NCBI RefSeq assembly: GCF_902706095.1
Contig: NZ_CACSJP010000001.1
Span: 682,001 to 746,000, forward strand
Reading direction: 5' to 3'
Source of the DNA: Rhizobium sp. 18065
GTDB lineage: Bacteria > Pseudomonadota > Alphaproteobacteria > Rhizobiales > Rhizobiaceae
Length of the DNA stretch: 64,000 nt
Shown one piece after another: positions 7,949 to 43,028 of this stretch. Position 1 is the stretch's first letter, and the number at the start of each line of letters is the position of its first letter. Under the pieces are notes generated by a model. It searched no databases. It saw only the letters and a list, made by a program, of their open reading frames with translations, and was not told the origin of the DNA. A program made the position numbers and the translations under genes.

Positions 7949-7976
7949 CTCGCACAAGTTTCGCTTTCTATGGTCT
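7949..7976 (+). promoter_or_regulatory. Two-block flagellar promoter motif before fliF
   Basis: CTCGCACAAG (7949-7958), nine bases, then CTATGGTCT from 7968. It matches the pattern upstream of five other flagellar units in this window. A second CTCGC copy lies 11 bases upstream (7938-7942), the spacing expected of a direct repeat bound by an OmpR-type regulator. Rem is the inferred regulator. The motif argues that the fliF start lies downstream of it. Confidence 0.6.
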
Positions 7977-8026
7977 CGCCAAGGGCAAAAGCCCTCAAAC
8001 CTTTCTTTATGATGGTGCGAGACAGA

Positions 8027-9721
8027 ATGAATCTGTTAAATCAATTACTTCAGGTGCTGAAGAACTTCGGGTCGTTAGGCCAGACGAAGCTTTTGGCCAT
8101 GGGCGGTGTAGCCCTTGTTTCATTCGCAATCATCATTGCCGGTGCTCTTTACGTCAACAAACCGGCCCTCGAGACACTTTATGTGGGTCTGGAACCGGTC
8201 GATTTGAACCAGGTCAGCATTGCGCTTGCCGAATCAGGTCTGAATTTTGAAGTCGGGACTGACGGTGCGAGCATTCGTGTTCCCGTCGGCATGACCAGCA
8301 AGGCCCGTCTTCTGCTCGCCGAGCGCGGCCTGCCCAACAGCGCTAATGCCGGCTATGAGCTTTTCGACAATGTCGGTTCGCTGGGCCTGACCTCCTTCAT
8401 GCAGGAAGTGACACGTGTCCGCGCTCTGGAGGGTGAAGTCGCACGCACCATCCAGCAGATCAGCGGCATCGCAGCCGCCCGTGTGCATATCGTCATGCCC
8501 GACGTCGGCAATTTCCGCCGCGGTGAACAGAAGCCGACAGCATCCGTAATGATCAGAGCGGCCTCCGACGCGGGCCGCAAGTCCGCCGCCTCCATCCGCC
8601 ATCTTGTCGCATCCTCGGTGCCGGGCCTCGACGTCGAGGACGTCACGATTCTGGATTCGACCGGCCAGCTCCTGGCATCCGGCGACGAAACAGGCGGCGC
8701 CGCAACGCGCTCACTCGGCGTTGTGCAGTCGGTACAGCAGGAAATCGAATCGAACATCGACAAGGCGCTTGCGCCGTTCCTCGGCATGGACAACTTCCGT
8801 TCCAGCGTCACGGCCCAGCTGAACACCGACAGCCAGCAGATCCAGGAGACCATCTACGATCCGGAATCGCGGGTTGAGCGTTCTGTCCGTGTCACCAAGG
8901 AAGCGCAGAAGTCCCTGCAGCGCCAGTCGGATACGGCGGCAACTGTCGAGCAGAACATTCCCCAGGCAGCCCCGGAAAGTGGCGGCGCGGGTCCTGAATC
9001 CTCTGACGAGCAGGACAAGAAGGAAGAGCAGACCAACTACGAAATCAACAGCAAGACCGTAGCGACTGTTCGCAACAGCTACACGCTCGAAAAAATCTCC
9101 GTGGCGGTCGTGGTCAACAAGGGCCGTATTGCCAAGATGGTCGGAGAACCGGTCGACCAGGCCAAGATCGATGCCTATCTCGCAGAGATGCAGAAGATCG
9201 TTTCTTCGGCCTCCGGCCTTGATGCAGCGCGCGGCGACGTCGTCACGCTGACGGCGATGGATTTCCTCGAGAACCAGCTGCTCGAAGAATCCGCAAGCGG
9301 CCCGGGCATCATGGAAATCCTCAGCCGCAATGTCGGCGGGATCATCAACTCGCTTGCTTTCGTCGCCGTCGCCTTCCTGATTGTCTGGATGGGGATCCGT
9401 CCGATGGTCCGCAGCGCAGGCGTTGGTGGTGGTGCTGCAGCTTTGACCGGCGATATGGGCGAGCAGGCCGCAGGGCTCGAACTACCCGACTTCTCGCCGG
9501 CGCTTGGCGGCGGTGCAGGAAGCTCGCTCATGGACGGCTTCGGCTCCGACTTCGGCTTCGACAGCACCGACGACCTGCTCACCCTCGACGACGACGCAGG
9601 TGGTGGCTTCAACCGCCGCGTCAAGGAAGGTCCCGAGCGGCGTCTGTCGCGCATGGTGGAGCTTTCCGAGGAGCGCGCTGCCAAGATCCTCCGCAAATGG
9701 GCTGTGGAAAACGCGGCTTGA
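8027..9721 (+). CDS. fliF: Flagellar MS-ring protein FliF
   Basis: 564 residues from MNLLNQLLQVLKNFG. The open frame begins at 7919, but that would place the start inside the promoter-like motif; 8009 is a possible alternative. An N-terminal membrane segment (about residues 25-45) precedes the ring-building domain (LYVGLEPVDLNQVSIALAES). A second membrane segment is near residue 445. The cytoplasmic tail ends RMVELSEERAAKILRKWAVE, the usual FliG-binding region, preceded by an Asp/Gly/Phe-rich stretch. It forms the MS ring around which motor, rod and export gate assemble. A terminator follows. Confidence 0.95.
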   Translation: MNLLNQLLQVLKNFGSLGQTKLLAMGGVALVSFAIIIAGALYVNKPALETLYVGLEPVDLNQVSIALAESGLNFEVGTDGASIRVPVGMTSKARLLLAERGLPNSANAGYELFDNVGSLGLTSFMQEVTRVRALEGEVARTIQQISGIAAARVHIVMPDVGNFRRGEQKPTASVMIRAASDAGRKSAASIRHLVASSVPGLDVEDVTILDSTGQLLASGDETGGAATRSLGVVQSVQQEIESNIDKALAPFLGMDNFRSSVTAQLNTDSQQIQETIYDPESRVERSVRVTKEAQKSLQRQSDTAATVEQNIPQAAPESGGAGPESSDEQDKKEEQTNYEINSKTVATVRNSYTLEKISVAVVVNKGRIAKMVGEPVDQAKIDAYLAEMQKIVSSASGLDAARGDVVTLTAMDFLENQLLEESASGPGIMEILSRNVGGIINSLAFVAVAFLIVWMGIRPMVRSAGVGGGAAALTGDMGEQAAGLELPDFSPALGGGAGSSLMDGFGSDFGFDSTDDLLTLDDDAGGGFNRRVKEGPERRLSRMVELSEERAAKILRKWAVENAA

Positions 9722-9744
9722 GGAAAATCGGCTAACAAAACGCA

Positions 9745-9770
9745 AACCGCGCCCACCGGCGCGGTTTTTG
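9745..9770 (+). terminator. Intrinsic terminator after fliF
   Basis: AACCGCGCC, loop CACC, GGCGCGGTT, then TTTG: a perfect 9-bp stem followed by T residues, 24 bases after the fliF stop. It separates fliF from visN. Confidence 0.85.
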
Positions 9771-9854
9771 CGTTATGGTCGCGGCGTGGCAGTATTACAG
9801 CACCATGTCTCCAATGGGCTCCTCTCTTTAATTGGGGATGTACCGTGACTGGTT

Positions 9855-9900
9855 GTGATCTTTGACTATTTATATTTTAAAATGAACATGATTCGTTAGG
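9855..9900 (+). promoter_or_regulatory. AT-rich candidate promoter region of visNR
   Basis: An AT-rich stretch about 100-145 bases before visN holds TTGTGA/TTGACT (9852-9867) followed by TATTTATATTTTAAAATG. It resembles a housekeeping promoter, as expected for the top class of the motility cascade. The two-block flagellar motif is absent. The exact -35/-10 pair cannot be fixed by eye. Confidence 0.35.
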
Positions 9901-9999
9901 CCCGTGAGATGAGGGCAAGCGTTGAGTCGGGTTCAGCCGGTGAAATGCGCCTGTGTATCTTCTCGTTGGGATGTCACGTCCTCGAAGGGGCAACACTAT

Positions 10000-10746
10000 A
10001 TGGATGCCGAGCTGACAACGGAGGGATCAGGAAGCAGAGTGCGCTCACCCGCACGTGCTGAGCCTCCGCAGGGCTCGTCTTCCAGGGAGATCCTGATCCA
10101 TAAATTGGCGGCGCCGGGGCAGTCCGGTGATCTCGCCCATTGCTTGCGCATGCTGACCGAATATCTGGGCGCGACGCACTATCTTCTGGCGCGCTACGAT
10201 CTGGTGCAGGAAGACGGCCTTGATTTCGTCGTGGCGTCTGACTGGCCATTCGATCTGGTCCGTCGTCTGGATAGCGAACTGGCCACAACCTATTCGCAGT
10301 CGACCGAACTTGAGAAATGCATGTCGGTGCTGCAGCCGAAATACAATCTCCTGCCGGATGATGTGCATGTGCTGGACGGGATCAGCCGCCAGTATTGCTC
10401 GATCACCCTGAATGTCGGGCGCACGCGCCTGGCCCTGATGCTGCTGTTCCCGCAGGACCACGTTCTCGCCGCCGACCGGCTGCGCGAAGTGGGTCTGCTG
10501 ATAGGCTACGTTGTCGGCCTGTCGGTCAGCAAGGGTCAGAAGAGCGACCGTGATTTCGAGCTGACCGAACGTGAGCTGGAATGCCTCTTCTGGATTGCAG
10601 AGGGCAAGACCAGCGATGAAATCGCCACGATTCTGGGGATCTCGCGCAACACGATCAACAATTACATCACCAGCGTCATGCGCAAGACGGCAACAAAGAC
10701 GCGTTCTGAAGCGATCGCCTATGCGGTCAGAAACAATCTCGTCTGA
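10000..10746 (+). CDS. visN: LuxR-type motility master regulator VisN
   Basis: 248 residues from MDAELTTEGS. A TTG at 9922 would give a longer frame, but the ATG at 10000 follows GAAGGGG and gives the expected size. The N-terminal about 170 residues resemble a ligand-binding domain of the LuxR family. The C-terminus is a LuxR helix-turn-helix (LTERELECLFWIAEGKTSDE and NTINNYI). VisN forms a complex with VisR that activates rem and thereby the flagellar, motility and chemotaxis genes (S. meliloti knowledge). visR follows nine bases later. Confidence 0.92.
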   Translation: MDAELTTEGSGSRVRSPARAEPPQGSSSREILIHKLAAPGQSGDLAHCLRMLTEYLGATHYLLARYDLVQEDGLDFVVASDWPFDLVRRLDSELATTYSQSTELEKCMSVLQPKYNLLPDDVHVLDGISRQYCSITLNVGRTRLALMLLFPQDHVLAADRLREVGLLIGYVVGLSVSKGQKSDRDFELTERELECLFWIAEGKTSDEIATILGISRNTINNYITSVMRKTATKTRSEAIAYAVRNNLV

Positions 10747-10755
10747 GGGGGCGGA

Positions 10756-11505
10756 ATGGGGCATCAAAACAGACCTGGCGGTTCTACTCTTGAAGATGCG
10801 ACCTGGTCCAGCCAGCGCCCTGTCACGTCCCGCACCGATATCTTCCCGAAGCTTGTCTCGCTCCAGCGCTCGCTGAATGCCCGCGGCTTTGCGGCGTTCC
10901 GCGTCGCCGGCGCCAGCCTGCCGCACAAGCGTCGTCTGGATGCGGAATACGAGAACTGGAGCTCAGGCCTCAGCAGCGGCCGCGACGCCTTTGTCGCTGC
11001 CTATGGCGACACGCTGCTCGGCCATATCGAGGCCTCGACACTGCCGCTCATGTGGTGCGCCGACGACGAATCCAGTTTCATCGAGGCTTCGGATTTCACG
11101 CCGTTCACCACCCAGGTCGATGCCCGCCTGCTGCCGTATTCCGGCATTGCGTTTCCGGTGCGTCTGGGCGCCGTGGGAAATGGCTACATCGTCTTTCCGA
11201 CGGCCGGCGGCGCGGATCTGCCGGGCGAACTGGTGCTGTCCGTGCATAGCCGCTGTTATCAGGTGATGACCGATATCCTGTCGCTCGATGAGCGCAAGGC
11301 GATGACATCGGAGACCCTGAGCGAGCGTGAGATCGCCTGCCTGCAGCTGGCCGGCGATGGCCGTATCAGCGAAGAAATCGCCGAGAGGCTGGGCCTTTCG
11401 GTCCATACCGTCAACGCCTATCTCGGTTCGGCAACGATCAAGCTGGATTCGGTCAACCGCATCCAGGCGATCGCCAAGGCGATCCGCCTTGGCTACATCA
11501 CCTAA
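10756..11505 (+). CDS. visR: LuxR-type motility master regulator VisR
   Basis: 249 residues with the same two-part design as VisN and a LuxR helix-turn-helix at the C-terminus (LSEREIACLQLAGDGRISEE, VHTVNAYLG). It starts at an ATG behind GAGGGGCGGA. It is co-transcribed with visN and acts with it as the top of the motility hierarchy. It converges with the minus-strand gene ending at 11523. Confidence 0.92.
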   Translation: MGHQNRPGGSTLEDATWSSQRPVTSRTDIFPKLVSLQRSLNARGFAAFRVAGASLPHKRRLDAEYENWSSGLSSGRDAFVAAYGDTLLGHIEASTLPLMWCADDESSFIEASDFTPFTTQVDARLLPYSGIAFPVRLGAVGNGYIVFPTAGGADLPGELVLSVHSRCYQVMTDILSLDERKAMTSETLSEREIACLQLAGDGRISEEIAERLGLSVHTVNAYLGSATIKLDSVNRIQAIAKAIRLGYIT

Positions 11506-11522
11506 CCGTTTTCCCAAGGAAT

Positions 11523-11963
11523 TCAGCCGTATAAGGGCATGGCCTGTGCCTTGACGAATCGGGCTTCGCGCAGCCGTTGCTCAAGCATGCGTGTATTCGC
11601 ATTCGGGTCGCCGGCCGTCTCATGAAACGCGATATGGTTGATCTCCAGGCCTGCTGTCTCGTTGGTCAGGGTCAGCTGCGCGTAGATCGTGATGTCGCGC
11701 GGCTTGATCTCGAGGTCGAGCACGATCTCCGGCGGACCGCCCCATTCGAGCCGATACTCTCCGCCCGAGCCGAAATTGACGGTGCCTGGATGAAAATAGA
11801 GTTCGGCGGCCGAAGAAACGAGATCTGCAATATTCCCGTAAAGTTCAAAGCGTAAAAGTGAAATGAGATCGGCCGCATCGAGCAGGCGCATCTCGCTTGC
11901 GACGGGGCTGATGGCTTCTGCCACAATACGTTCACGCTGGGTGGTGTAAGAGCACTTTTTCAT
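11523..11963 (-). CDS. Conserved hypothetical protein downstream of flhB
   Basis: 146 residues, no signal peptide or membrane segment. It starts five bases after the flhB stop on the same strand, so it is very likely co-transcribed with flhB and perhaps translated by coupling, as no good ribosome site is visible. The sequence (RLLDAADLISLLRFELYGNI, FGSGGEYRLEWGGPPEIVLD) matches no family I recognise. From memory the same arrangement occurs in S. meliloti. Its place in the flhB unit suggests a motility or export-related role, which is inference only. Confidence 0.7.
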   Translation of the reverse strand: MKKCSYTTQRERIVAEAISPVASEMRLLDAADLISLLRFELYGNIADLVSSAAELYFHPGTVNFGSGGEYRLEWGGPPEIVLDLEIKPRDITIYAQLTLTNETAGLEINHIAFHETAGDPNANTRMLEQRLREARFVKAQAMPLYG

Positions 11964-11968
11964 AGTGG

Positions 11969-13051
11969 CTAGCGTATCCGTCTCTTGGGGGCCTTCGACG
12001 CGTAGACTCGGTGTACGAGTTCGGCGACGGCCTTATAAAATAACGACGGGATCACGCTATCCACTGAGACTTGCGCAAACATGGAGCGGGCGAGGGGCGG
12101 ATCTTCAAATATGGGAATATTGTGCTCGCCGGCGATTTCTCGGATCTTCAGCGCAACGAGGTCCTGGCCCTTGGCAACCACGACAGGCGCCTCGTTCTCT
12201 TCACGCACATAGCGCAGCGCCACGGCAAAGTGGGTCGGGTTGGTGATCACCAGCGTGGCGCGCGGCACGTTGGCAATCATGCGCCTGCGCGCACGGTCAC
12301 GAGCGATCGAGCGCTGCCGCGCCTTGACCACCGGGTCGCCCTGGGACTGCTTGTGTTCGTCCTTGATTTCCTGCTTGCTCATGCGCAGCTGTTCGTACCA
12401 GTGGTACCGCGTCCAGAACACGTCGACAGCCGCCAGCAGCGCCGTGGCCAGCAGGATGATGATCAGCATTTTTTTGATGATAATGGCGAATTTGACGAAG
12501 ATCGTCTGCGGATCGGAGAACATCGAATCGATCACCGCGTAGTAGTCGTTGCGCAGCGCAAAGACCATGATCACCGAGACAATGACGATCTTGAACAGGG
12601 ATTTGCCGAACTCGACCATGCCCGGGCCGCTGAAGATGCGGCTCCAGCCCTTGGCGAGTGAGATGCGGTTTGCCTGGGGGGTGATTCGGTCGAGCACGAA
12701 GGTCGGCAGATGCTGGACGATGCTTGAGCCGGCGCCCAGCACCATGAACAGGATGAAGGCCGGCGCCAGCAGCGCACCGATTTCCCAGCCGAGATGTGTG
12801 AACAGCGAGACGACATCGGTTGCCGTTCCCAGCCTCCACTGGTCGGGTCGCTCGAACAGGTCTTTCAGCGTTTCGCCTAGCCGGCCGATCCCGCTTGGTA
12901 GGAAGAAGACAAGGTAGAAATAGAAGCCCAGTGTGGATGCAAAAAGCGCGAGTTCACGCGAGATCGGGACATTTCCCTTCTCGTACGCATCGCGCACCTT
13001 TTTCTCGGTAGGATCTTCGGTTTTGCTGTCTTTATCTTCATCGTCAGACAT
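11969..13051 (-). CDS. flhB: Flagellar export switch protein FlhB
   Basis: 360 residues: a short charged N-terminus ([21 protein letters not shown]), four membrane segments, then the cytoplasmic domain with the self-cleaving NPTH site in [12 protein letters not shown]. It controls the switch from rod/hook to filament export, working with FliK (34567). A strong hairpin separates it from fliG upstream, so it may have its own promoter in the 110 bases before its start; I see no two-block motif there. Confidence 0.95.
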
Positions 13052-13161
13052 GACCGTCGCCGCCCTTCAGACCGGTAGAGGCATCCACTGCCCGTATGAT
13101 GAAGTCGGCGCCGTCGAGGCGCGCCGGCCGGCCACGATCATCGCGCCCGGCTGAAACGTAA

Positions 13162-13194
13162 CCGCCCGCCGATTGCTGTTCAATCGGCGGGCGG
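13162..13194 (-). terminator. Perfect 14-bp hairpin between fliG and flhB
   Basis: CCGCCCGCCGATTG, loop CTGTT, CAATCGGCGGGCGG: a perfect 14-bp stem, 33 bases beyond the fliG stop on the minus strand. The following minus-strand bases are TTACGTTTC, only weakly T-rich. It probably terminates or attenuates the motA-fliM-fliN-fliG transcript before flhB. Confidence 0.65.
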
Positions 13195-13226
13195 CGATTT
13201 GTCGGGTTTTCAACAGAGGCGCAGGT

Positions 13227-14264
13227 TTAGGCCGCCTGATTCTCGCCTTCTGTCTCCTTGAGCTGGATCTGCCCGGCATTGGCGAGGCGAATCGCTTCCT
13301 GCGCCACGGCGCGGCGGGCGATGGCGATCTCGCGGGGATTGATCCCCGTGGTGCCGGACTGCAGGTCCGATTCGATCATGCGGCGCGAACGTGGGCTGAT
13401 CGATGCCAGGACGCATTCCTTGATCTCGGTGCTGGCGCCGCGAAGCGCCATCGTGAGGATGTCGGCGGAGATGTCGTTGAGCAGCAGAACGCGGCTGCGC
13501 TGCGGCATGGCGAGCAGATCCTCGAACAGGAAGATCTTCGGGCGAACCTTGTTGACCGATTCCTTGCTGATCGATTCCAGCGAGGTGAGCAAGGTATCGA
13601 CTTCGTTCTTTTCCAGTTCGTTCATCAGTTCGGCAACCTTCGCCGAACCCGTCGAATTGCGGTCTGCGTCGATCTCGGCGATCAGGTCGTGGACCCGGTT
13701 CTCGATGATCTGCGCCGCCTTCGGGCTGACATTCTTCAGGTTGACGGTACGGTTCATGATATCCGCGCGACGGCTGTCCGGCAGCTTGAGGAGCACCTTG
13801 GCGCCGAACGAGGAGGGCAGCATCGACAGGATATAGGCGACCGTCTGCGGATGTTCGCGCATCAGGAACTTGGCGATGAAATCGGGCTCGGCATCCTGCA
13901 GGCGATCCCAGATCGACGCCTCGAAGGCCTGGAAGGCGGTGCGGCGGCCGAGAAGACCGTCGACTTCTTCCGGCGTCAGGCCTTCCTCGAGAATGCTCTC
14001 GATGGCCTTGGCATTGTCCATCAGGCCCGCACCTTCGGTGAACAGGTCCTCGAATTCGTTGACCAGCCCCAGCAGTTCATCCGGTGGGATGGTGCGCAGG
14101 GTCTGAGCCGATGCGATGATTGTCTGCAATTCCGCCTGGGTAAAATACTTGAGCAGCTTGCCGGCAACGCCCTTGCCCATGGCCAGCAGCACGGCGGCTG
14201 CCTTATCGGCCTGGGAAAGCGGTTTGCCGGTTAAGGGGCCGCCAAAATCGTCAAAGTCCATCAT
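13227..14264 (-). CDS. fliG: Flagellar motor switch protein FliG
   Basis: 345 residues from MMDFDDFGGPLTGKPLSQ. FliG features are DKAAAVLLAMGKGVAGKLLKY at the N-terminus, the central EHPQTVAYILSMLP segment, and the C-terminal torque domain with charged residues (DIMNRTVNL onward; NEVDTLLTSLE, FLFEDLLAMPQRSRVLLL). It couples stator force to rotor movement and binds FliF. It lies 28 bases downstream of fliN in the motA operon. Confidence 0.95.
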   Translation of the reverse strand: MMDFDDFGGPLTGKPLSQADKAAAVLLAMGKGVAGKLLKYFTQAELQTIIASAQTLRTIPPDELLGLVNEFEDLFTEGAGLMDNAKAIESILEEGLTPEEVDGLLGRRTAFQAFEASIWDRLQDAEPDFIAKFLMREHPQTVAYILSMLPSSFGAKVLLKLPDSRRADIMNRTVNLKNVSPKAAQIIENRVHDLIAEIDADRNSTGSAKVAELMNELEKNEVDTLLTSLESISKESVNKVRPKIFLFEDLLAMPQRSRVLLLNDISADILTMALRGASTEIKECVLASISPRSRRMIESDLQSGTTGINPREIAIARRAVAQEAIRLANAGQIQLKETEGENQAA

Positions 14265-14292
14265 GGTCTTGTCCTCTCTGGCCCATCATGGG

Positions 14293-14910
14293 TCAGGATG
14301 TCTTGGTCGCCATCACTTCGATCAGTTTTACACCGAAGCGGGTGTCGTCATTTTCGAGAACGGTGATCTCGCCGCGCGCAATGCGCCGGCCGTTCACCAT
14401 GATCTCGACGGGCTCGCCGATCTTCTTGTCCAGCGCGATAATGGCGCCTTCCTCGAGATTCATAAGCCCCGAAACCTGCATGCGGCTGGAGCCGAGCACG
14501 ATCTGGACCTCGATCGGGATGTCCATGATCAGGTCGATATTGGCGCTCAGGCCGCTGCCCGGTTCCTGGACGCTGCTCGGAGCGCTGTCGAAAGACGAAT
14601 CGCCACCGAAGCTGTCGCCACCAAAGCTCGATCCGCCGAACGCATCATCGGTACCGAAAGCATCGCCGGTCCCCAGGTCGCTGGTCGCGGACGATCCGCC
14701 GAAATCGGATTCGAAAGCTGCCAATGGGTCGCTGGAACCGCCGAAATCGCTGAGGTCCACGCCGAAGTCGGAGCCGATGTCCGGGAGGGTGCCTTCGGCA
14801 TCTGCTTTCAGGACGCCGCGCAGGTCATCGACTGCCATGTCGAAATCCGCATCGGAACCCGGCATCGCCAGAGCGTCTTCTTCCGTCTTGGGGGTCTTTT
14901 TCGTAGCCAT
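14293..14910 (-). CDS. fliN: Flagellar motor switch protein FliN
   Basis: 205 residues. The C-terminal about 80 residues are the SpoA/FliN core ([51 protein letters not shown]). The N-terminal about 120 residues form an acidic extension with repeated DFGG/FGGDS motifs, much longer than in enteric FliN. With FliM it forms the C ring that receives CheY-P. Confidence 0.93.
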
Positions 14911-14974
14911 GGATTCATTATTCCTGTTGAAACTTGCCTCAAGCTGCCGTGGGTCGTGTCACGGCCGAAAATGC

Positions 14975-15928: not shown

Positions 15929-15930
15929 GA

Positions 15931-16809
15931 TCAAGCCGCCTTGCTTTCACCGCCGCCGCCGGGATTCATCATTTCCTGCTCGACCGCGTCGATAGACGGA
16001 CGCTCGTAGGACGAGATGGTCTTGCGGCCATATTCGAGTGCCACCTGCGGAACCGAGCCGTTCATGTAGGCAAGCAGGGTCTGCTTGACGATGATATACA
16101 GGCGGTGCTGCTTGGTGCGGACCATCTTGATCTGCGAGATGATCGGGTTGCAAAGGCAATAGGACAGGAAGATGCCGAGCATGGTGCCGACCAGGGCGGC
16201 GCCGATCAGGCCGCCGAGAACTTCCGGCGATTCGTTGATCTTGCTCATCGCCTTGATAACCCCGAGAACGGCGGCAACGATACCGATGGCCGGGAAGCTG
16301 TCGCCCATCGCGGTGATGGCGTGATAGGGCTTCATCTTGTCATAGAGGATGGTGTTGATTTCTTCGTCCATCAACGCCTCGATCTCATGGCTACGGGCGT
16401 TGCCGATGATGATCAGGCGGACATAGTCGCAGATGAAGGAGGTCAGTTCCTTGTTCTTCAGCAGGTTGGGCGCCGCCGTGAAGATGCTGGATTCCTCCGG
16501 GTTGTCGATATGGGCTTCGATCTCGTTGCGCGACTTGGTGCGCAGGTCGCGCATCAACGAGTAGAGCACGCCGAGAACGTCGAGATAGGCGCGTTCCTTC
16601 GGCACGGCATGCTTGAACGCTTCGCCGATCGCCTTGCCGGAATCCTTCACCACTTTCATCGGATTGGCCATGATGAAGCCGCCGACGCCGGCGCCGCCGA
16701 TGATCATCAGCTCGAAGGGCTGCACCAGAACGTCCAGGTGACCGCCCATGGCCATGAATCCGCCGAGCACGCAGCCAATCGTAATTACAAATCCGATGAT
16801 GATATTCAT
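15931..16809 (-). CDS. motA: Stator protein MotA
   Basis: 292 residues with four membrane segments (first at residues 3-22), a large cytoplasmic loop, and the MotA signature with TM3-TM4 ([31 protein letters not shown]). With MotB (31953) it forms the proton channel that drives the motor. It is the first gene of the motA-fliM-fliN-fliG unit. Just before its ATG the 11-base sequence GGTGCGGGCAA occurs twice in tandem on the coding strand. Confidence 0.95.
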
Positions 16810-16852
16810 TTTGCCCGCACCTTGCCCGCACCTGAACGTTATTTTTCAGGTT

Positions 16853-16880
16853 CAGCGATACGGCCCGTGCCTTGCGTGAA
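16853..16880 (-). promoter_or_regulatory. Two-block flagellar promoter motif before motA
   Basis: On the minus strand: TTCACGCAAG (16880-16871), nine bases, then GTATCGCTG (16861-16853), ending 43 bases before the motA start. Block one and the spacing fit the other five copies; block two has GTA instead of CTA. Confidence 0.5.
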
Positions 16881-17212
16881 GCTGAATCAAAACCGGCATG
16901 GCACGCCTTCTGCGACCATTTTTGCTGAGGCCGCTCACCAGACAGCTTCGCGCAAGCCATTTGCCGCAAGAAGAGCGCTGACGGACGCAAGCATCCCGTG
17001 GTCCGCGCAGTCGAGATTGTCGTTTTCGTATGATCAGCCAGCCTTCCAATCGACCTGAGCGCAATGCGCCTTATCGAGCGGGCAAGACCCTGGCACTGAA
17101 CGAGATTTTTGGCGGCGCCCGGAGTATGTCTGCCCCTTTTCGTGTCCGGTTCGACCCGTGTCAGGTTGAGCCCATGGCGTTCTTTTATCTCTGATGCTCG
17201 GAGGCAAATGAC
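16881..17212. other. Intergenic region motA/flgF without a recognised gene
   Basis: About 330 bases between divergent motA and flgF. No convincing coding sequence. CGCAAG occurs three times within 41 bases on the + strand (16951, 16965, 16986), the core of block one of the flagellar motif, but without CTA nine bases later. These may be regulator half-sites for the flgF unit. A GGAGG ribosome site precedes flgF. Confidence 0.4.
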
Positions 17213-17947: not shown

Positions 17948-17965
17948 TCCTGAGATTGGAATGTC

Positions 17966-19932: not shown

Positions 19933-19953
19933 ACTTGTGTGGGTGGGGCAAGT

Positions 19954-19981
19954 CCCACGCAAGATTACTGGCCTAGGCTCC
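19954..19981 (+). promoter_or_regulatory. Two-block flagellar promoter motif before flgB
   Basis: CCCACGCAAG (19954-19963), nine bases, CTAGGCTCC from 19973; CTAGGCTCCG recurs exactly before flgE. GCAAG also occurs 11 bases upstream of the main copy (19948). CTAGG starts 36 bases before the flgB ATG, so it may be the -10 region. Confidence 0.65.
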
Positions 19982-21176: not shown

Positions 21177-21194
21177 TAAGCAGGGAACGGACAC

Positions 21195-29845: not shown

Positions 29846-29923
29846 TGCCTTGCGTGAGGCTGGCCGGATATTGCGGTTTTGCGCCGAAGCGGATTTCCGA
29901 CCTTGCCAAATCGCGGTCGCGTT

Positions 29924-31113: not shown

Positions 31114-31141
31114 CTCGCGCAAGTTTGAAACCCTAGCTTCG
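31114..31141 (+). promoter_or_regulatory. Two-block flagellar promoter motif before the FliH-like/motB operon
   Basis: CTCGCGCAAG (31114-31123), nine bases, CTAGCTTCG from 31133. It would drive the unit FliH-like-motB-motC-fliK-transglycosylase with a leader of roughly 165 bases before 31309. Confidence 0.6.
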
Positions 31142-31210
31142 GCCAAAGCACGCGTGGGCATATGCGCCCGCGACCGGCTCGATCCGAAGGTGATCTCGAC
31201 ATTGGAAGTG

Positions 31211-33242: not shown

Positions 33243-34564
33243 TGACGCTCCGCAGGGTATCCATCTCGCTTCTGGCTCTCGCTTCGCTTGTCGGACTGGG
33301 CAATGCCTCGGCGCGTGCCAACGACATGGATACCATCCAGCCTTTCCAGATGCTGCGCTCGTTGCAGTTCGTGCAGGACACCGTGGTTCTGGGCGATCAC
33401 TCGGCTGCCGAGATGCAGCGCTTCATGCTCGGAACCATCGACGAGCGCCTGCGCGGCGCCGATCCGGCGATCTTCGACGATCCGCGCAATGTCGATGCCG
33501 CGCTTATCTACGCCATGAGCGGTGGTAACCCGGCAACGCTGGAATTCCTCGTCGCGCGTGACATCAACGGCAATTTCGACAATCGAATTACCGATAGCCT
33601 GCGCAAGTATCTGAGCGGCAAAGGCACGCTGATCGCCAAGTCCCTGGGTGAGATCAGCAAGGAATATCGCAACACCGATCTCGCGCCTTATCTTGCCCTG
33701 GTCGCCGGCAATGTGACGATTACGCGCGACCCTGTCGATGCGTTGAAATTTTACGACTGGGCACGCCTGACCGCGCCCGGCACGATCGTCGAGGAGGCGG
33801 CCCTGCGTCGCTCGCTGGCGGTCGCTGTCGATGCGAAGATTGTCGACAAGGCGGGTGGCTACGCCAATCGTTATGCGCGGCGCTACCTCTATTCCCCGTA
33901 TGCGAGCCAGTTTGCCGATCTCTTCGTCCAGCTTGTCGTTGAGCACTATGATGTCATCAAGCAGGAAGATATCGAGGCAACGCTCGGATATATGGACAAT
34001 GATCGCCGGCGCGAGGTCTATCTTCGCATTGCCCGCAAGGCGGCGATTGCCGGGCGCAAAGATCTGACCAAAATGGCCGCAGACCAGGCCAGGGCCTTGT
34101 CTGGAACAGCGGAAGGCTCCGACGCACTGGCCAATCTCTATGGCAGCCTCGCCAGCATCTCGACGGAAAATGTCGATGACGCCATGCAGGCGATCATGAA
34201 TATCCCAGCGGAATCCCTCTCGCCGAAGGATCTCGCACTGCGCCGGGCAGCCGAAGCCATCGCCAAGGAAGTGCTACGCAAACCGGAACCACCGCCTGAA
34301 AGCCTGACGCAAGCCAGCGCTAATACAACCGTTGCGAATGCAGATGCAGGCGCTATGGCCGCGGGAGAGGATGATGCGGAGTTGCAGGATCCGACAGCGC
34401 CACCGACCCCTGCCGCCGCGCCGCAGCCGCAGCCGCAGCCCGTTTCAGCGGAGGCTGACGCCGCCAATGCCGCCAGTCTCGACCCGGCGGTTCGTACCTT
34501 TGTTGACACCGGGCGCTCCAAGCTGGATGCGATCGATGATCTTCTCAAGCAGGAAGGCCCCTGA
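33242..34564 (+). CDS. motC: Periplasmic motor protein MotC
   Basis: 440 residues with a signal peptide (cut near ARA, about residue 26). The mature protein is helical (FQMLRSLQFVQDTVVLGDHS, AEMQRFMLGTIDERLRG), and the C-terminal region is Ala/Pro/Gln-rich (about 355-400). MotC is specific to rhizobia and relatives; it binds MotB in the periplasm and affects rotary speed. MotE (23595) is its chaperone. The start shares one base with the motB stop. Confidence 0.92.
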   Translation: MTLRRVSISLLALASLVGLGNASARANDMDTIQPFQMLRSLQFVQDTVVLGDHSAAEMQRFMLGTIDERLRGADPAIFDDPRNVDAALIYAMSGGNPATLEFLVARDINGNFDNRITDSLRKYLSGKGTLIAKSLGEISKEYRNTDLAPYLALVAGNVTITRDPVDALKFYDWARLTAPGTIVEEAALRRSLAVAVDAKIVDKAGGYANRYARRYLYSPYASQFADLFVQLVVEHYDVIKQEDIEATLGYMDNDRRREVYLRIARKAAIAGRKDLTKMAADQARALSGTAEGSDALANLYGSLASISTENVDDAMQAIMNIPAESLSPKDLALRRAAEAIAKEVLRKPEPPPESLTQASANTTVANADAGAMAAGEDDAELQDPTAPPTPAAAPQPQPQPVSAEADAANAASLDPAVRTFVDTGRSKLDAIDDLLKQEGP

Positions 34565-34566
34565 CC

Positions 34567-36009: not shown

Positions 36010-36514
36010 CGCCTCGGCCAGTGTCGGCATCTGCGAGCGTGAAATCAGCGCTGCTGCGGCAAAATATGGGGTGCCGGAAGGCATCCTTTATTCCGTCGGC
36101 CTGACCGAAACCGGTCGCAAGGGATCGCTTCAGCCCTATGCCATGAATGTCGAAGGTCGGGCGATCTATTCGGGCGACATGAACGAAGCGCTTGGCGCGT
36201 TTCAGGTGGCGCGCGGGCAGGGAGCCAAGCTGATCGACGTTGGCTGCATGCAGATCAACCAACACTTTCATGGCGATCAGTTCACCTCCGTCCAAGCCAT
36301 GTTCGATCCGAAAAAGAACGTCGAATACGCAGCCCGCTTCCTCAGCAAATTGCACAATCGGCACGAGACCTGGACGATGGCGGTGGCCCGATATCATGCC
36401 GGACCGAACAATGACCCGGCGCAAAAGCGCTATGTCTGTCGAGTTATTGCCAATCTCGTCGCCACGGGCTACGGCACCTGGACGACCAATGCGCGTCAAT
36501 TTTGCGGTGAATAG
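35933..36514 (+). CDS. Periplasmic lytic transglycosylase of the flagellar cluster
   Basis: 193 residues from ATG 35933, or 179 from ATG 35975 (MTALVLISF). Signal peptide ends near SASA. Family 1 lysozyme-like motifs: YSVGLTETGRKG with probable catalytic Glu in TET, DVGCMQINQHFHG, and AVARYHAGPNND. FlgJ at 46492 has only the rod-binding domain, so this enzyme probably opens peptidoglycan for rod growth (inference). Its start lies inside fliK. Confidence 0.85.
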   Translation: MTGRFSQLATRVLPMTALVLISFTSSASASVGICEREISAAAAKYGVPEGILYSVGLTETGRKGSLQPYAMNVEGRAIYSGDMNEALGAFQVARGQGAKLIDVGCMQINQHFHGDQFTSVQAMFDPKKNVEYAARFLSKLHNRHETWTMAVARYHAGPNNDPAQKRYVCRVIANLVATGYGTWTTNARQFCGE

Positions 36515-36623
36515 CAATCTTTGGTTGTTTGACAGCCACATTAGTGCCGATTTGTTAATTGTGGCAACACTGCGGACAAATGGGGCAAAGCAAGAGCTTG
36601 CGCGAAGCTTGCGTTAACTTTTC

Positions 36624-36662
36624 CACTAAAAAATAGTGCGCAATAGTGGGTGTAGCCACTAT
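36624..36662 (+). promoter_or_regulatory. Dyads upstream of rem, candidate VisNR sites
   Basis: CACTA-AAAAA-TAGTG (36624-36638) and a perfect ATAGTGG-GTGTAG-CCACTAT (36643-36662) lie about 135-170 bases before rem in an AT-rich region. Both share the TAGTG half-site. VisNR is known to activate rem in S. meliloti; that these dyads are its sites is inference. The two-block flagellar motif is absent in the forward direction. Confidence 0.45.
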
Positions 36663-36794
36663 ATATAGATCAAATCGGCACCAATTCGTTAATCAATTAT
36701 TAATATCTATCATTAACTTTCGCCAGTTGTCGCTGAATCCCTCGATTCGTACCCATAGTGCATCGAAACACCACACTGATTCGGAGGCGGCTGA

Positions 36795-37466
36795 ATGATC
36801 GTCGTGGTTGATGAGCGCGAGCTCGTGAAAGACGGGTATACTTCTCTATTTGGACGGGAAGGGATTCCATCCACCGGATTTGATCCGGCGGAATTCGGGG
36901 AATGGGTCACTACGGCGGCTGATTCCGACATTGCGGCAGTTGAGGCTTTTCTGCTCGGTCAGGGCGAAAGCACATTGGAACTGCCACGGGCAATCCGGGA
37001 TAGAACCCAGGCACCGGTGATCGCGGTCAGCGATCAGCCGTCCCTGGAGGCGACCTTGGCCCTGTTTGATTGCGGCGTCGATGACGTCGTACGCAAGCCG
37101 GTCCATCCTCGCGAAATCCTGGCACGGGCAGCGGCCATTCGCCGTCGTCTGAAGGCAATTTCCAACTTCACCGAGATCGGACCTATCCGGGTCTTCTCAG
37201 ATGGGCGCGATCCGGAAATTTCCGGCGACGTGTTTCCTCTGCCGCGGCGCGAGCGTCGCATCCTGGAATACCTAGTCGCAAATCGCGGTCGGCGCGTCTC
37301 GAAGACCCAGATCTTCAACGCCATCTACGGCATTTTCGACGAGGAAGTCGAAGAGAACGTCGTCGAAAGCCATATCTCCAAGCTGCGCAAGAAGCTTCGC
37401 AAGAAGCTCGATTTCGACCCTGTCGATTCCAAGCGCTTCCTTGGCTACTGCATCGACTGGAGCTGA
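36795..37466 (+). CDS. rem: Orphan OmpR-type motility regulator Rem
   Basis: 223 residues: a degenerate receiver domain and a winged-helix DNA-binding domain ([48 protein letters not shown]). The receiver keeps D6/E7, S79 and K101 but has no Asp at the phospho-acceptor place after strand 3 (around residues 50-55, VEAFLLG). In S. meliloti Rem is activated by VisNR and itself activates flagellar and motor genes in growing cells. No partner kinase gene is adjacent. Confidence 0.93.
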
Positions 37467-37544
37467 GGTCGCAACCTGCGGACCTGTGCGTGCGTGAGGC
37501 GGCTTGTCGGATGAATTTAAACGACAACCTGTATGTCATACAGC

Positions 37545-37573
37545 CTCACGCAAGGCCCATCTCCTAGGCTCCG
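37545..37573 (+). promoter_or_regulatory. Two-block flagellar promoter motif before flgE
   Basis: CTCACGCAAG (37545-37554), nine bases, CTAGGCTCCG (37564-37573). CTAGGCTCCG is identical to the copy before flgB and lies 38 bases before the ATG (36 at flgB). It would drive flgE-flgK-flgL-flaF-flbT-flgD. Confidence 0.65.
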
Positions 37574-37601
37574 TAATGACTACCGAAGCGAGGATTTTAA
37601 T

Positions 37602-38798
37602 ATGAGCCTTTACGGAACAATGCGAACCGGCGTGTCCGGGATGAATGCCCAGGCGAACCGCCTTGGCACCGTCGCCGACAACATCGCGAATTCCAGCACT
37701 GTCGGCTACAAGAAGTCGTCGACCCAGTTTTCATCGATGATTTTGCCAAGCACGGCTGGCCAGTACAATTCCGGTGGTGTCGAAACGGATGTCCGTTACT
37801 CGATCTCCAGCCAGGGTACGTTCAGCTACACCACATCCTCGACGGACCTTGCCATCAACGGCGACGGCTTCTTCATCGTCTCAGGTGAAGACGGCGTTGA
37901 ATACCTGACCCGCGCCGGCGCGTTCACACTGCAGGACGATGGCTCGCTGCAGAACTCCGCCGGCTACACGCTGATGGGTTACGAATACGATTCCGCCGCC
38001 GATCCGACGATTGTCGTCAATGGTTTCGACGGCCTGTCAGAAGTCAACCTGTCGGGTTCCGGCATCTCCGCAGTCGCTTCGGACACGGGTATCCTGGCCG
38101 TCAATCTGCCGAATACGGCTGTGGCAGGCGACACGAAAACCACCTCGCTCAAGGTTTTTGACAGTCAGGGCACAAGCCGCCTGGTCACCTTTACCTACAC
38201 AAAGTCGGCAACCGACAATGAGTGGGACGTCGTCGCCGTCGATCCCGATGGCAACAATATCCTGAGTGAGACACTTTCGTTTGATGTCGACGGCCAATTG
38301 ACATCAGGAAGCGATCTGACGCTAACCGGTTTCACCATGGGTGGCGCTGAAGTTCCTGACATCGCGCTGAGCATTGCTGGCACCACGCAGCTTGCTTCCG
38401 ACTTCTCCGTTCAGAACGGTAAGGTCAACGGCAACGCGGCCTCCAAGGTCAAGGGTTATGAAATCGACGATACAGGTGTGGTCTCGGTCGCTTATGAAAA
38501 TGGCGACCTGGTGCCGACCTACCGCGTGGCGCTGGCCAGTGTGCAGAGCCCCGACAACCTCAACCCGGTTGCCGGTAACCTTTACACCCAGTCCAACGAC
38601 TCCGGTGTGGTGGTCATGGGCTATGCCGGCTCGAGCGGCTTCGGCAGCATCATCTCCGGCGCACTCGAAGACTCCAACGTCGACGTGGCTGAAGAGCTCA
38701 CTGCGATGATCGAATCGCAGCGCAACTACACTGCAAACTCCAAGGTATTCCAGACCGGCTCCGAATTGATGGAAGTCCTGGTCAACCTGAAGAGATAG
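37602..38798 (+). CDS. flgE: Flagellar hook protein FlgE
   Basis: 398 residues from MSLYGTMRTGVSGMNAQANR. The frame is open from 37533, but that would run through the promoter motif. FlgE signatures: ADNIANSSTVGYKKSSTQFS, TDLAINGDGFFIVSG, and C-terminal ISGALEDSNVDVAEELTAMI with QRNYTANSKVFQTGSELME. Forms the curved hook. flgK follows 23 bases later. Confidence 0.95.
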   Translation: MSLYGTMRTGVSGMNAQANRLGTVADNIANSSTVGYKKSSTQFSSMILPSTAGQYNSGGVETDVRYSISSQGTFSYTTSSTDLAINGDGFFIVSGEDGVEYLTRAGAFTLQDDGSLQNSAGYTLMGYEYDSAADPTIVVNGFDGLSEVNLSGSGISAVASDTGILAVNLPNTAVAGDTKTTSLKVFDSQGTSRLVTFTYTKSATDNEWDVVAVDPDGNNILSETLSFDVDGQLTSGSDLTLTGFTMGGAEVPDIALSIAGTTQLASDFSVQNGKVNGNAASKVKGYEIDDTGVVSVAYENGDLVPTYRVALASVQSPDNLNPVAGNLYTQSNDSGVVVMGYAGSSGFGSIISGALEDSNVDVAEELTAMIESQRNYTANSKVFQTGSELMEVLVNLKR

Positions 38799-38821
38799 TC
38801 CGAAAAAGTTAGGGTAGCCTT

Positions 38822-40279
38822 ATGTCGCTTGCATCATCGCTTGGCACTGCTCAGGGAATTTTCCGGAACACGGGGCAACAGACCTCCGTGCTCACGACGA
38901 ACATCGCCAATGATGGAAACGAGAACTACGTAAGGCGCCAGGCTGTCGTCACCAACACCGTCTACGGTGCGACGATGGTCCAGAACGAACGTTCGCAGCA
39001 GATGGCTCTGCTGCGACAGTTCTCCAGCGCGACGTCGCAGCAGAGTTCGCAAGGCACACTGTTGGAAGGGTTGGAAACGATCTCCAGCGCGCTTGGCGGC
39101 AATGACTACGAACTGTCGACGTCGACCTATCTTGCCAATCTGCAGAGCAGCCTGCAGTCCTTCGCAGCGGCACCGGGTGAATATGCGCTCGCATCCACCG
39201 TTGTCACCGATGCGATCGATGTTGCCAATTCGCTGAACAATGCGACGGCTTCGACCCAGCAGCTGCGCGCCGACACCGACGCCCAGATTGCCGAACAGGT
39301 CGAGAGCCTGAACAAGCTGCTGGCCGAGTTCAAGACGGTCAACGACTCGGTCATTCGTCTGACGGCAACCGGTGGCGAGCCGAGCGATTATCTCGATCGC
39401 CGCGATACGCTGGTCAAGGAGATTTCCGGCATCGTCGGTGTCAGCATCAACATGCGCGAAAACAGCGACATGGTGCTCTACACTTCGGACGGCACCACGC
39501 TGTTCGAGACCGATCCGCGTGAAGTCACATTCGATCGCAAATATAATTACGATGCATCGGTTACCGGAAATTCGATCTATATCGACGGAACGCCGGTCCG
39601 TGCCGGCGTTGGCGGCAATACCGACGGGCAGGGCACCCTGAGCGCGCTGGTCCAGCTGCGCGATGTCATCGCACCGACGTTCCAGGTGCAGCTCGACGAA
39701 GTTGCACGTGGCCTGATCGAGGCTTTTGCCGAAACCGATCCCTCGGCCGGTCAGCCGGATGCTCCGGGCCTGTTTACCTGGTCGGGTGGCACCACACTGA
39801 CATCCGGCACGGTCGAGCCGGGTTTGGCCGCCAAGATTACGGTCAATGATGCTGTGCGATCGGATGCCGGCGGCGACCCGACACTGATCCGCGATGGCGG
39901 CATCAACGGAACGGATTATGTCCACAACACCGCCGGTGCCTCGGGCTACACCGACCTGATCAATACCTATGTCGACGCCATGTCCGCCGACCGTGATTTT
40001 TCGGCAGACGCCGATCTGACCACGACAACCAGTCTGTTGTCCTTCGCCAGCGACTCCATCGGTTGGCTTGAAGAGTATCGTTCGACTGCCACCTCGGCAG
40101 AGGAAAACAAGAGCGCGCTTTACGAGCGTACCTATCAGACATATTCGTCGAAAACGGCAGTCAGCCTCGACGAAGAACTTTCCATGCTGCTCGATGTTGA
40201 GCAGTCCTACAAGGCCGCAGCCAAGCTCGTCTCGACAATTGACGAGATGCTGGAAGCCGTGCTGCAGATGGCGGGATAA
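38822..40279 (+). CDS. flgK: Hook-filament junction protein FlgK
   Basis: 485 residues. N-terminal axial region (LGTAQGIFRNTGQQTSVLTT, NIANDGNENYVRRQAVV) and C-terminal helices (LDEELSMLLDVEQSYKAAAK, LVSTIDEMLEAVLQ) match HAP1. It sits on the hook beneath FlgL and the filament. flgL follows six bases later. Confidence 0.93.
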   Translation: MSLASSLGTAQGIFRNTGQQTSVLTTNIANDGNENYVRRQAVVTNTVYGATMVQNERSQQMALLRQFSSATSQQSSQGTLLEGLETISSALGGNDYELSTSTYLANLQSSLQSFAAAPGEYALASTVVTDAIDVANSLNNATASTQQLRADTDAQIAEQVESLNKLLAEFKTVNDSVIRLTATGGEPSDYLDRRDTLVKEISGIVGVSINMRENSDMVLYTSDGTTLFETDPREVTFDRKYNYDASVTGNSIYIDGTPVRAGVGGNTDGQGTLSALVQLRDVIAPTFQVQLDEVARGLIEAFAETDPSAGQPDAPGLFTWSGGTTLTSGTVEPGLAAKITVNDAVRSDAGGDPTLIRDGGINGTDYVHNTAGASGYTDLINTYVDAMSADRDFSADADLTTTTSLLSFASDSIGWLEEYRSTATSAEENKSALYERTYQTYSSKTAVSLDEELSMLLDVEQSYKAAAKLVSTIDEMLEAVLQMAG

Positions 40280-40285
40280 TCCAGG

Positions 40286-41350
40286 ATGTCGACCTCGAAC
40301 GTATCGAATATCTCCATACAGACGTCCATGCGGCTCACCATCCGGCAGGCCCAGACCGATCTGCTGCAGGCGCAGCAGGAGGTCAGCACGGGGTACTTTG
40401 CCGATATCGGCGCCGAACTGGGCAGCAAGACATCGACGGTGATCGATCTCAATCGCGAAAGCCTGCGGCTGTCTTCGATCCTCAGCAACAACAGCATCGC
40501 AACCCAGCGGCTGTCGGCCTCTCAGGAAGCCCTGAGCCAGATTGCCAAGGCTGCCGAGGAAATGAACCAGTCGTTGATCACGATCTCGGGTTCGACCAAT
40601 ACGGATACGATCGGCACGACGATCGGCACGGTCAAGAGCTCGCTCGACACCATGACCGACATGGCCAATTCGGCCATCAACGGCGAGTTCCTGTTTTCCG
40701 GCATCAACACGGATGTGCAGCCGCTCGCCGACTACGATGAAACATCGGCAGCCAAGGTCGCTTTCGACAATGCCTTTACCGGTTACTTCGGCTTTGCGCC
40801 GACCAGCACGGCTGATACGGCGACGATCGTTGCCGAAGGCGGTGCGCCGAGCATGGAAGACTTCATCGCCAACGTCCTGGAGCCGATGTATTCCGGCGCC
40901 GACTGGACGACCGACTGGTCGAGTGCTTCCGATGAGGTCATGACGAGCCGGATTACGCAGTCGGAAACGGTCAACACCTCTGCGTCTGCCAACGAAAACG
41001 GTTTCCGCTACTTCGCGCTGGCCGGGGTCATCACCCAGGAACTGATGAACATCGGCGCGCCGGCCGATGCCGTCACCGTGGCGATCAATTCGGCGATTGA
41101 CTACACCGGCAAGGCCATCAGCGGGATCAACAAAACCAGATCCGAGCTGGGTCTTTCGGAAAACCGGATCGAGAAGGCTGATTCCTCCTTGCAGATCCAG
41201 GTCGACATCATCGAGACAAGTCTGTCCAGCAAGATCGAAGTCGATGCCTACGAAGCGTCGACGAAGGTCAATAGTCTTCTGGCAATGGTTGAAGCGTCCT
41301 ACACGCTGACAGCCAAGATCCAGGCGCTGAGTCTCGTAAATTACCTTTGA
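40286..41350 (+). CDS. flgL: Hook-filament junction protein FlgL
   Basis: 354 residues with flagellin-like terminal helices (MRLTIRQAQTDLLQAQQEVS, TGYFADIGAELG; C-terminal KVNSLLAMVEASYTLTAKIQ). HAP3 family; links FlgK to the flagellin filament. Confidence 0.92.
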   Translation: MSTSNVSNISIQTSMRLTIRQAQTDLLQAQQEVSTGYFADIGAELGSKTSTVIDLNRESLRLSSILSNNSIATQRLSASQEALSQIAKAAEEMNQSLITISGSTNTDTIGTTIGTVKSSLDTMTDMANSAINGEFLFSGINTDVQPLADYDETSAAKVAFDNAFTGYFGFAPTSTADTATIVAEGGAPSMEDFIANVLEPMYSGADWTTDWSSASDEVMTSRITQSETVNTSASANENGFRYFALAGVITQELMNIGAPADAVTVAINSAIDYTGKAISGINKTRSELGLSENRIEKADSSLQIQVDIIETSLSSKIEVDAYEASTKVNSLLAMVEASYTLTAKIQALSLVNYL

Positions 41351-41387
41351 TGATCAAAGGGACTGAGTAAAACTGAAGGGCAAATGA

Positions 41388-41735
41388 ATGTACCAGTTTT
41401 CATACGCCGAAATCATGGAAGATGGGGTGGCCGACGCGAAGGATCGCGAGCGTCAGGCCCTGGATCGGACGATTGATTTGCTGCGGGCGGCTGCACTGAA
41501 GGCCAGCTATTCGCGCGAGGCGATTGAAGCGCTTTACTACACACGACGGGTCTGGGTCCGCTTCATTGAGGACCTGCAACATCCCGAAAATCAGCTGGCT
41601 GTCGAAGTTCGCGCCAATCTGATTTCCATCGCGATTTGGATTTTGAAGGAATGCGACCGGATCAGGAAGCGCCAGTCAGACAATTTCCAGGGCATCATAG
41701 ACGTGACAACCATCATTAGGGATGGACTTAAATGA
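41388..41735 (+). CDS. flaF: Flagellin synthesis regulator FlaF
   Basis: 115 residues ([40 protein letters not shown]). FlaF proteins of alphaproteobacteria promote flagellin production or secretion and oppose FlbT. It overlaps flbT by four bases, the usual pair. Confidence 0.92.
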
Positions 41736-42181
41736 AGAGCACTTTGCGCATCTCGCTCAAGTCGGGCGAACGGATCTTTATCAACGGAGCGGTTCTTCGC
41801 GTCGACCGCAAGGTTGCTCTGGAGTTCCTCAATGACGTGACTTTCCTGCTGGAAAATCACGTTCTGCAGCCCGACCAGGCCACCACGCCTCTGCGTCAGC
41901 TCTACTTCATTGCGCAGATGATGCTGATCAATCCGGAAGGCCGCGAACAGTCCATGGCGATGTTCCGCAAGTCGATCATCATGCTGTTGAACTGCTTCCA
42001 GAACGAGGAAATTCTGGCCGAACTGAAGCGTGTCGATGCGATGGTTTCGTCCGGGCGAGCCTTTGACGCGCTTAAGGCAATACGCTCGCTTTATACGGTC
42101 GAGGACCGGATTTTGAGCAGCGAAGAGATGAGCCCGGCAACGATCGAGCAGATTCGCAAGGAGATCGCACCATGGCGGTAG
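41732..42181 (+). CDS. flbT: Flagellin translation regulator FlbT
   Basis: 149 residues with FlbT features ([59 protein letters not shown]). In Caulobacter FlbT acts on the 5' leader of flagellin mRNA and limits its translation. The conserved leaders of the four flagellin genes here are candidate targets. It overlaps flgD by ten bases. Confidence 0.93.
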
Positions 42182-42639
42182 ATGCAGTCAGCAGCACGAC
42201 AAGTGCCACGACGACAACGACGACGACTGATACCTCTGCCTCCAGCGCTTCGGCGTCTGCCTCGCTGGACTACGAGAGTTTCCTGAAGCTCCTGATCGCG
42301 CAAATGCAAAACCAGGATCCGACCGATCCGATGGATGCCAGCGAGCAGATCTCGCAGCTGGCCACCTTCTCGCAGGTCGAGCAGACGATCCAGACCAACT
42401 CGAACCTCGAGACACTGATCACCGGCAACGCCCTGACCAACGCCTCGAACTATATCGGCAAGACCATCACAAGCGCTGACGAGAAGACCACCGGCGTCAT
42501 CGAATCGGTTCGCGTCTATTCCGACACCATGGTTGCCACGACCACGGACGGTGACGAGATACCGATCACTGTCGGCGTTCGTGTCGGAGAGCCGCCTGCC
42601 GCGGATACGGATACGGATACCGAGACGAGCGACACCTAA
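42172..42639 (+). CDS. flgD: Hook-cap scaffold protein FlgD (short form)
   Basis: 155 residues. The FlgD N-terminal domain is clear ([40 protein letters not shown]). The C-terminus is short and ends in a [11 protein letters not shown] tail encoded by a GGATAC tandem repeat, so the FlnD/Ig-like domains of enteric FlgD are absent. Required for hook assembly. Confidence 0.92.
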
Positions 42640-42649
42640 ACTGCTAAGC

Positions 42650-42689
42650 CTTCCGGAGTGGAGGGAATGATTCGCCGCTCCGGAAGGAC
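42650..42689 (+). promoter_or_regulatory. Hairpin overlapping the fliQ ribosome-binding site
   Basis: CTTCCGGAGTGG (42650-42661) pairs with CCGCTCCGGAAG (42675-42686): a 12-bp stem with one U-G pair and a 13-base loop. The 3' arm contributes to GGAAGGA (42683-42689), the likely fliQ ribosome site eight bases before its ATG. It could hide that site or act as a weak terminator after flgD. Confidence 0.55.
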
Positions 42690-42697
42690 ACCGTCTC

Positions 42698-42964
42698 ATG
42701 AATGAGGCTGACGCACTCGACATTATGCAGGCTGCCATCTGGACAATCCTGATGGCATCCGGACCCGCGGTTGCTGCCGGCATGATTGTCGGTGTGGTGA
42801 TCGCGCTGATCCAGGCGCTGACCCAGGTCCAGGAAATGACCCTGACTTTCGTCCCGAAGATCCTGGCAATCCTGATTACCATCGGCATCACCGCCCCCTT
42901 CGCCGGCGCGCAGATTTCCCTTTTTGCCAACATGGTTTTTTCCCGCGTGCAATCGGGTTTCTGA
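42698..42964 (+). CDS. fliQ: Flagellar export gate protein FliQ
   Basis: 88 residues with two membrane segments (VAAGMIVGVVIALIQALTQV, QEMTLTFVPKILAILITIG), the standard FliQ layout. Export channel partner of FliP and FliR. Confidence 0.93.
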   Translation: MNEADALDIMQAAIWTILMASGPAVAAGMIVGVVIALIQALTQVQEMTLTFVPKILAILITIGITAPFAGAQISLFANMVFSRVQSGF

Positions 42965-43000
42965 TCGGATCGCCTAAGCGTCCGGACGCTTCCTGACACC

Positions 43001-43028
43001 CTCGCGCAAGCTTCGCCTTCTATATCTG
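43001..43028 (+). promoter_or_regulatory. Two-block flagellar promoter motif before flhA
   Basis: CTCGCGCAAG (43001-43010), nine bases, CTATATCTG from 43020, 62 bases before the flhA end of the leader. Shares CTCGCGCAAG exactly with the FliH-like/motB copy. Confidence 0.6.

Follow-up and report, generated by a model that had tools for sequence, protein, structure and literature searches.

In a 64,000-nucleotide stretch of the Rhizobium sp. 18065 genome (contig NZ_CACSJP010000001.1, positions 682,001 to 746,000; hereafter the window), six promoters of the flagellar gene cluster share a two-block motif of exact spacing, YYCRCRCAAG-N9-STA. We propose that this motif is an operator of the winged-helix regulator Rem built into the promoter, a reading to which we assign a probability of about 0.82. 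The assignment to Rem rests on association: the spacing is conserved among relatives, and the motif tracks rem genes and Rem-type flagellar clusters and is absent at polar-type ones. A preliminary description of the window had offered the same reading, and this association supports it.

Six two-block copies and their conservation

In the two-block pattern, TA begins ten bases past the end of the core YYCRCRCAAG; the pattern was scanned on both strands of the window, and the reversed pattern was counted as a control. Exactly six copies are found, in front of fliF, flgB, motB, flgE and flhA on the plus strand and motA on the minus strand (Table 1), precisely those listed in the preliminary description. 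The gene preceding motB, which was described as FliH-like and is so called below, has no family match in profile searches. The chance expectation is 0.013 copies per window (300 simulated windows, third-order Markov model), and 296 of the 300 simulated windows are empty. The core alone occurs ten times, and in six cases TA follows ten bases later; the four cores lacking TA are at 16947 on the plus strand and at 36606, 29858 and 19943 on the minus strand. When ranked among 127,918 positions with matrices built from the sites of relatives, each promoter group being left out in turn, the window copies take places 4 (flgE), 5 (fliF), 6 (FliH-like), 6 (flhA), 7 (motA) and 11 (flgB). The earlier remark that CTAGGCTCCG stands identically before flgB and flgE, 36 and 38 bases from the respective ATGs, is correct, and this identity is lost in the flgE promoters of relatives, for example in CTAGTCTC.

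To follow the promoters among relatives, Rem was used as the query against a collection of species genomes, and the 80 best-scoring loci were retained together with up to 10 kb per side (1.62 Mb in total); sites were anchored through the downstream gene and the core alone, and the position of TA was then read off. At least one strict match is present in 77 of the 80 loci, 177 in total, compared with none for the reversed pattern in the 1.62 Mb. The core is found upstream of flgE in 80/80 loci and of flhA in 78/78, with TA always exactly ten bases past it. Core and TA at ten bases precede the FliH-like gene in all 78 loci with enough upstream sequence, a count that omits one locus (L013) with only 4 upstream bases; in two loci (L040 and L045) this site lies 382–383 bases upstream of the gene, and one locus (L014) has an additional core, its own FliH-like site being intact. 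For fliF, flgB and motA, 15 further regions were taken from genomes among the 80 and anchored without TA, and core and TA at ten bases are present in 15/15 for each. Core and TA thus stay constant while spacer and flanks change, and the scan of related genomes proposed in the preliminary description finds both blocks and their exact spacing conserved at all six promoters, leaving the proposal standing.

Association with Rem and promoter architecture

The 80 loci were chosen by Rem itself; the pairing of FlhA with Rem in a survey of 199 genomes of the order is an independent test of the regulator's presence. A close Rem (expectation value, E, below 1e-45) is encoded in 54 of these genomes, the next best matches lying near 2e-22; at E up to 1e-40, Rem is missing from all of another 143 genomes sampled from the class. 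FlhA falls into two groups among the matches listed, with at least 57% identity in 48 genomes and about 43–48% in the others, and all 48 genomes with this Rem-type FlhA are among the 54 with a close Rem. In 40 Rem regions from 14 families, that of this genome among them, TA most often follows TCRCRCAAG after ten bases, with 19 sites compared with a mean of 1.1 at other spacings; of these sites, 10 come from this genome's family and 9 from outside it. Outside this family, 20 flhA regions of the Rem type contain 12 sites at ten bases and 8 at twelve, one site being shared between the set of 19 and the set of 12. No site is found in any of 20 polar-type flhA regions, 9 from genomes with both FlhA types and 11 from genomes lacking a close Rem.

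The nine genomes with two FlhA proteins, one about 65% and one about 46% identical to that of the window, form a natural control for flagellar regulation. In these genomes Rem goes with the FlhA of the ~65% type, and the site is present in the Rem-type region of six and in neither region of three. VisN was found in 7 of the 199 genomes, all of this genome's family, and the motif is also present in genomes where VisN was not found, which argues that VisNR is not its general reader. Together, these observations suggest that the motif follows Rem rather than flagella in general or VisNR.

The second block had been described as CTA, forming part of the −10 element. The base preceding TA is C in 44–94% of sites, varying by promoter, so that the fixed part of the block is TA. 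T at −7 (TAnnnT) is found in 96–100% of flgE, FliH-like, flgB and fliF sites (13 of 16 possible rows for flgB), and promoter alignments of relatives show no TTGAC near −35 at any site. The −10 assignment is supported for TA and by the TAnnnT of four of the six promoters, but not for C, nor for flhA and motA with respect to the T at −7. A second copy of the first block had also been placed 11 bp upstream at fliF and flgB. The best mean offset of an upstream copy is 11 bp (3.16 of 7 columns, compared with 2.35 at 10 bp). Only at flgB is the copy strong, with a mean of 4.8 of 6 matching bases; flgE, flhA and motA likewise score highest at 11 bp (2.6–2.9 of 6), whereas 10 bp is slightly ahead at the FliH-like gene (2.0 versus 1.7) and at fliF (3.0 versus 2.9).

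These features would fit an operator whose core, YTCRCRCAAG, ends ten bases before TA and is preceded, at about 11 bp, by a degenerate half-site. With TA at −12/−11, the core would span about −32 to −23, and a Rem dimer, bound head to tail across both half-sites, would occupy the place of the −35 element. Rem would thereby hold the housekeeping polymerase at a weak −10 element, and transcription would depend on Rem, whose activity would presumably be set by the amount made, through VisNR in the Rhizobiaceae. PhoB on the pho box is a winged-helix regulator of this kind, with half-sites about 11 bp apart that replace the −35 element and about ten bases to the −10. The likeness lies in a site at the −35 place, the lack of TTGAC, TA ten bases past the core and TAnnnT in four of six promoters; the Rem promoters differ in their half-site, GCAAG, and in the degeneracy of the upstream half, and Rem differs from PhoB in having no phospho-acceptor Asp.

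Rem, which is identical to Rem of a close genome, Rhizobium sp. PDO1-076, has a C-terminal winged-helix domain (Trans_reg_C, 57.7 bits where the cut-off is 26.2), and its receiver domain scores 26.9 bits, below the Pfam cut-off of 30.2. Across the order, the stretch of the recognition helix hardly varies. Glu takes the place of the phospho-acceptor Asp at residue 50 in 83/83 close rows, and in 67 distant rows this residue is E in 40, Q in 16, R in 8 and D in 3, with some genomes counted twice. Given the absence of this Asp, Rem activity is probably set by its amount rather than by phosphorylation, which turns the missing residue into a testable claim about what controls flagellar expression. 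In line with this, the orthologue LafR is reported to need no phosphorylation (PMC8429497). The same source has Rem activating basal-body and motor genes (class II) and assigns flagellin and chemotaxis genes to class III (PMC8429497); the six motif promoters, which belong to basal-body, hook, export and motor operons, agree with class II as reported there.

Rival readings and related systems

Fixed spacing between two invariant blocks is also what a sigma factor would produce, and the blocks could be −35-like and −10 elements of a flagellar alternative sigma factor acting with no activator. The gap of ten bases between core and TA is shorter than the usual −35 spacing, the conserved stretch extends to about 11 bp upstream of the core, and the motif accompanies the gene of an activator, Rem; we consider this explanation improbable. 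Only marginally better placed, and still unlikely, is a reading by another regulator of the same flagellar type, such as VisNR, CtrA or MucR. VisNR is reported to act above rem (PMC8429497), and a CtrA-like TTAA-N7-TTAA overlaps TA at one target outside the cluster in 10/10 genomes; the motif, however, extends beyond the 7 of 199 genomes with VisN, and the primary flagellar apparatus genes of Sinorhizobium meliloti are reported to be indirect CtrA targets (PMC4433202). That the six promoters are alike by chance could be argued from the shortness of the copies and from the extra flgB/flgE identity that relatives have lost. Six copies against 0.013 expected, 177 strict against 0 reversed matches among relatives, and a fixed core and TA within variable spacer and flanks exclude this statistically, and we give it practically no weight.

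Several points speak against a Rem operator. No strict site is present in 26 of the 40 distant Rem regions or in 10 of the 20 Rem-type flhA regions, and a second spacing, of twelve bases, exists outside the Rhizobiaceae; the latter is partly a recurring coding stretch of flagellar clusters and partly a real-looking variant. T at −7 is found in only 4% of flhA and 6% of motA sites. The 80 loci are closely related, and their counts represent non-independent events. Whole-genome counting was dropped as a test of the motif, as it gives little or no excess over the reversed pattern: 9 versus 5 for the strict pattern and 11 versus 7 for the looser TCRCRCAAG-N10-TA in this genome, 246 versus 151 in 25 Rhizobiaceae genomes, and no visible excess in an order-wide table that was not totalled. 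The signal therefore lies in how the copies gather in the flagellar region rather than in their number genome-wide. Finally, the ChIP (chromatin immunoprecipitation) motif of the Brucella orthologue FtcR, which acts on fliF, is TGTGGGCA in 118 of 363 peaks (PMC9456535). It is unlike the core, a comparison made with the promoters of the window; the window contains TGTGGGCA 0 times and TGCCCACA twice (33083 and 47195), none at the six promoters.

Rem of S. meliloti and Rhizobium leguminosarum, part of the VisNR-Rem cascade, is likewise encoded in the flagellar cluster beside flgE, and its orthologues are FtcR (Brucella), LafR (Bradyrhizobium) and ActR (Azorhizobium). These proteins are described as flagellar master regulators in rhizobia and Brucella, and the sole in vivo-defined site that we found fits none of the six promoters. 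The literature searched, which did not include the 2006 Rem paper that may already print the site, contains no named Rem or FtcR site and no operator at a fixed distance to the −10; the de novo motifs in the available part of an S. meliloti start-site map are unlike the two-block motif (PMC3616915). A fixed operator at fixed spacing would make the regulon readable from sequence, distinguish the two flagellar systems of one genome and flag unstudied genes. We see even odds for a broader proposal, in which a promoter code shared across the order and predating the VisNR layer has an activator without a phospho-acceptor replacing the −35 at ten bases (twelve in other families), the FtcR motif is not the flagellar operator, and the code marks new motility genes. 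If so, four small protein families outside the cluster would be marked as motility genes.

Further sites in the flagellar region and beyond

Table 1. Promoter elements, further cores and regulator genes in the window
Feature	Position	Strand	Details
fliF promoter	7949..7970	+	core 7949-7958, TA 7969-7970, hexamer TATGGT
visN and visR	9922..11505	+	both score above curated cut-off
motA promoter	16859..16880	−	core from 16880 downward, hexamer TATCGC, no T at −7
Seventh core, facing flgF	16947..16968	+	CA in place of TA after ten bases
flgB promoter	19954..19975	+	hexamer TAGGCT, clear GCAAG copy 11 bp upstream of core
Reversed core CCTCACGCAAGG between two flagellin genes	29849-29858	−	follows terminator-like hairpin
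FliH-like/motB operon promoter	31114..31135	+	hexamer TAGCTT
Weaker candidate in motC 3' end, facing motD	34304..34325	+	core CTGACGCAAG, TA after ten bases, matrix score 14.7
Two cores upstream of rem	36597..36617	−	11 bp apart, opposite strand, no TA
rem	36795..37466	+	winged-helix regulator, OmpR/PhoB class, Glu at phospho-acceptor position (residue 50)
flgE promoter	37545..37566	+	hexamer TAGGCT
flhA promoter	43001..43022	+	hexamer TATATC, no T at −7

Upstream of rem, where the motif had been described as absent, the two-block form is indeed missing, but the core is present, reversed and in tandem. The tandem cores recur at this position in 15 of the 80 loci, all among the nearest relatives, and three other loci have one elsewhere; they are a possible autoregulatory site. 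The core facing flgF is found in 15/15 relatives, followed after ten bases by CA in 12, TA in 2 and AA in 1, and a site related to the one facing motD lies inside motC in 45 of the 80 loci. The window's flagellins have no two-block match. The stretch between the flagellin genes contains cores without TA in 18 of the 80 loci, the exact CCTCACGCAAGGC being present in 2 only, and the reversed core of the window could belong to a second stem. A match at the 3' end of flhB (12079, minus strand, TTTGCGCAAG-N10-TA) is present in 15/15 relatives; it lies inside conserved coding sequence, where it is indistinguishable from protein conservation, and was therefore left uncounted.

The flhA leader (43023–43089) and 29 leaders of relatives have a nearly invariant TCTCATGAAGAGAYGG directly before the flhA start; by eye, a hairpin whose sequence varies lies ahead of it, such as GGGCAGC..GCTGCCC in Sinorhizobium and CCGGAAG..CTTCCGG in near relatives. 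A consensus fold of the 29 leaders gives only an invariant short stem with no compensatory changes, and Rfam has no match in the window, the flhA leader included.

Outside the flagellar cluster, the looser pattern matches this genome six times (seven genome-wide for its reversal), and four of these matches precede genes whose relatives retain the site. The four small protein families behind this promoter are unnamed orphans; five of the target sequences were searched against Pfam without a match, the ~40-residue protein being outside that search. The first, a membrane protein some 150 residues long, is encoded in 26/26 genomes, with the longer core site in 11, CRCAAG-N10-TA in 10 more and neither in 5. 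A 105-residue protein is encoded in 10 of the 26 and has the site in 10/10; in all ten its promoter carries the CtrA-like TTAA-N7-TTAA that contains the motif's TA, which makes joint control by CtrA and Rem possible, and TA may here be part of the CtrA-like box instead of a −10. A lipoprotein gene has the site in this genome and in three relatives. The ~40-residue protein, with the site in this genome (position 1501 of its locus, C2:333031) and in two relatives, has a conserved frame of 37–42 residues that starts with MAYDW about 93 bases past the motif and likely contains one membrane helix. Three candidates, one of them within a transporter-like open reading frame, look like chance matches. 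In two genomes the site stands before the gene of a ~210-residue protein, and three other matches occur in single genomes.

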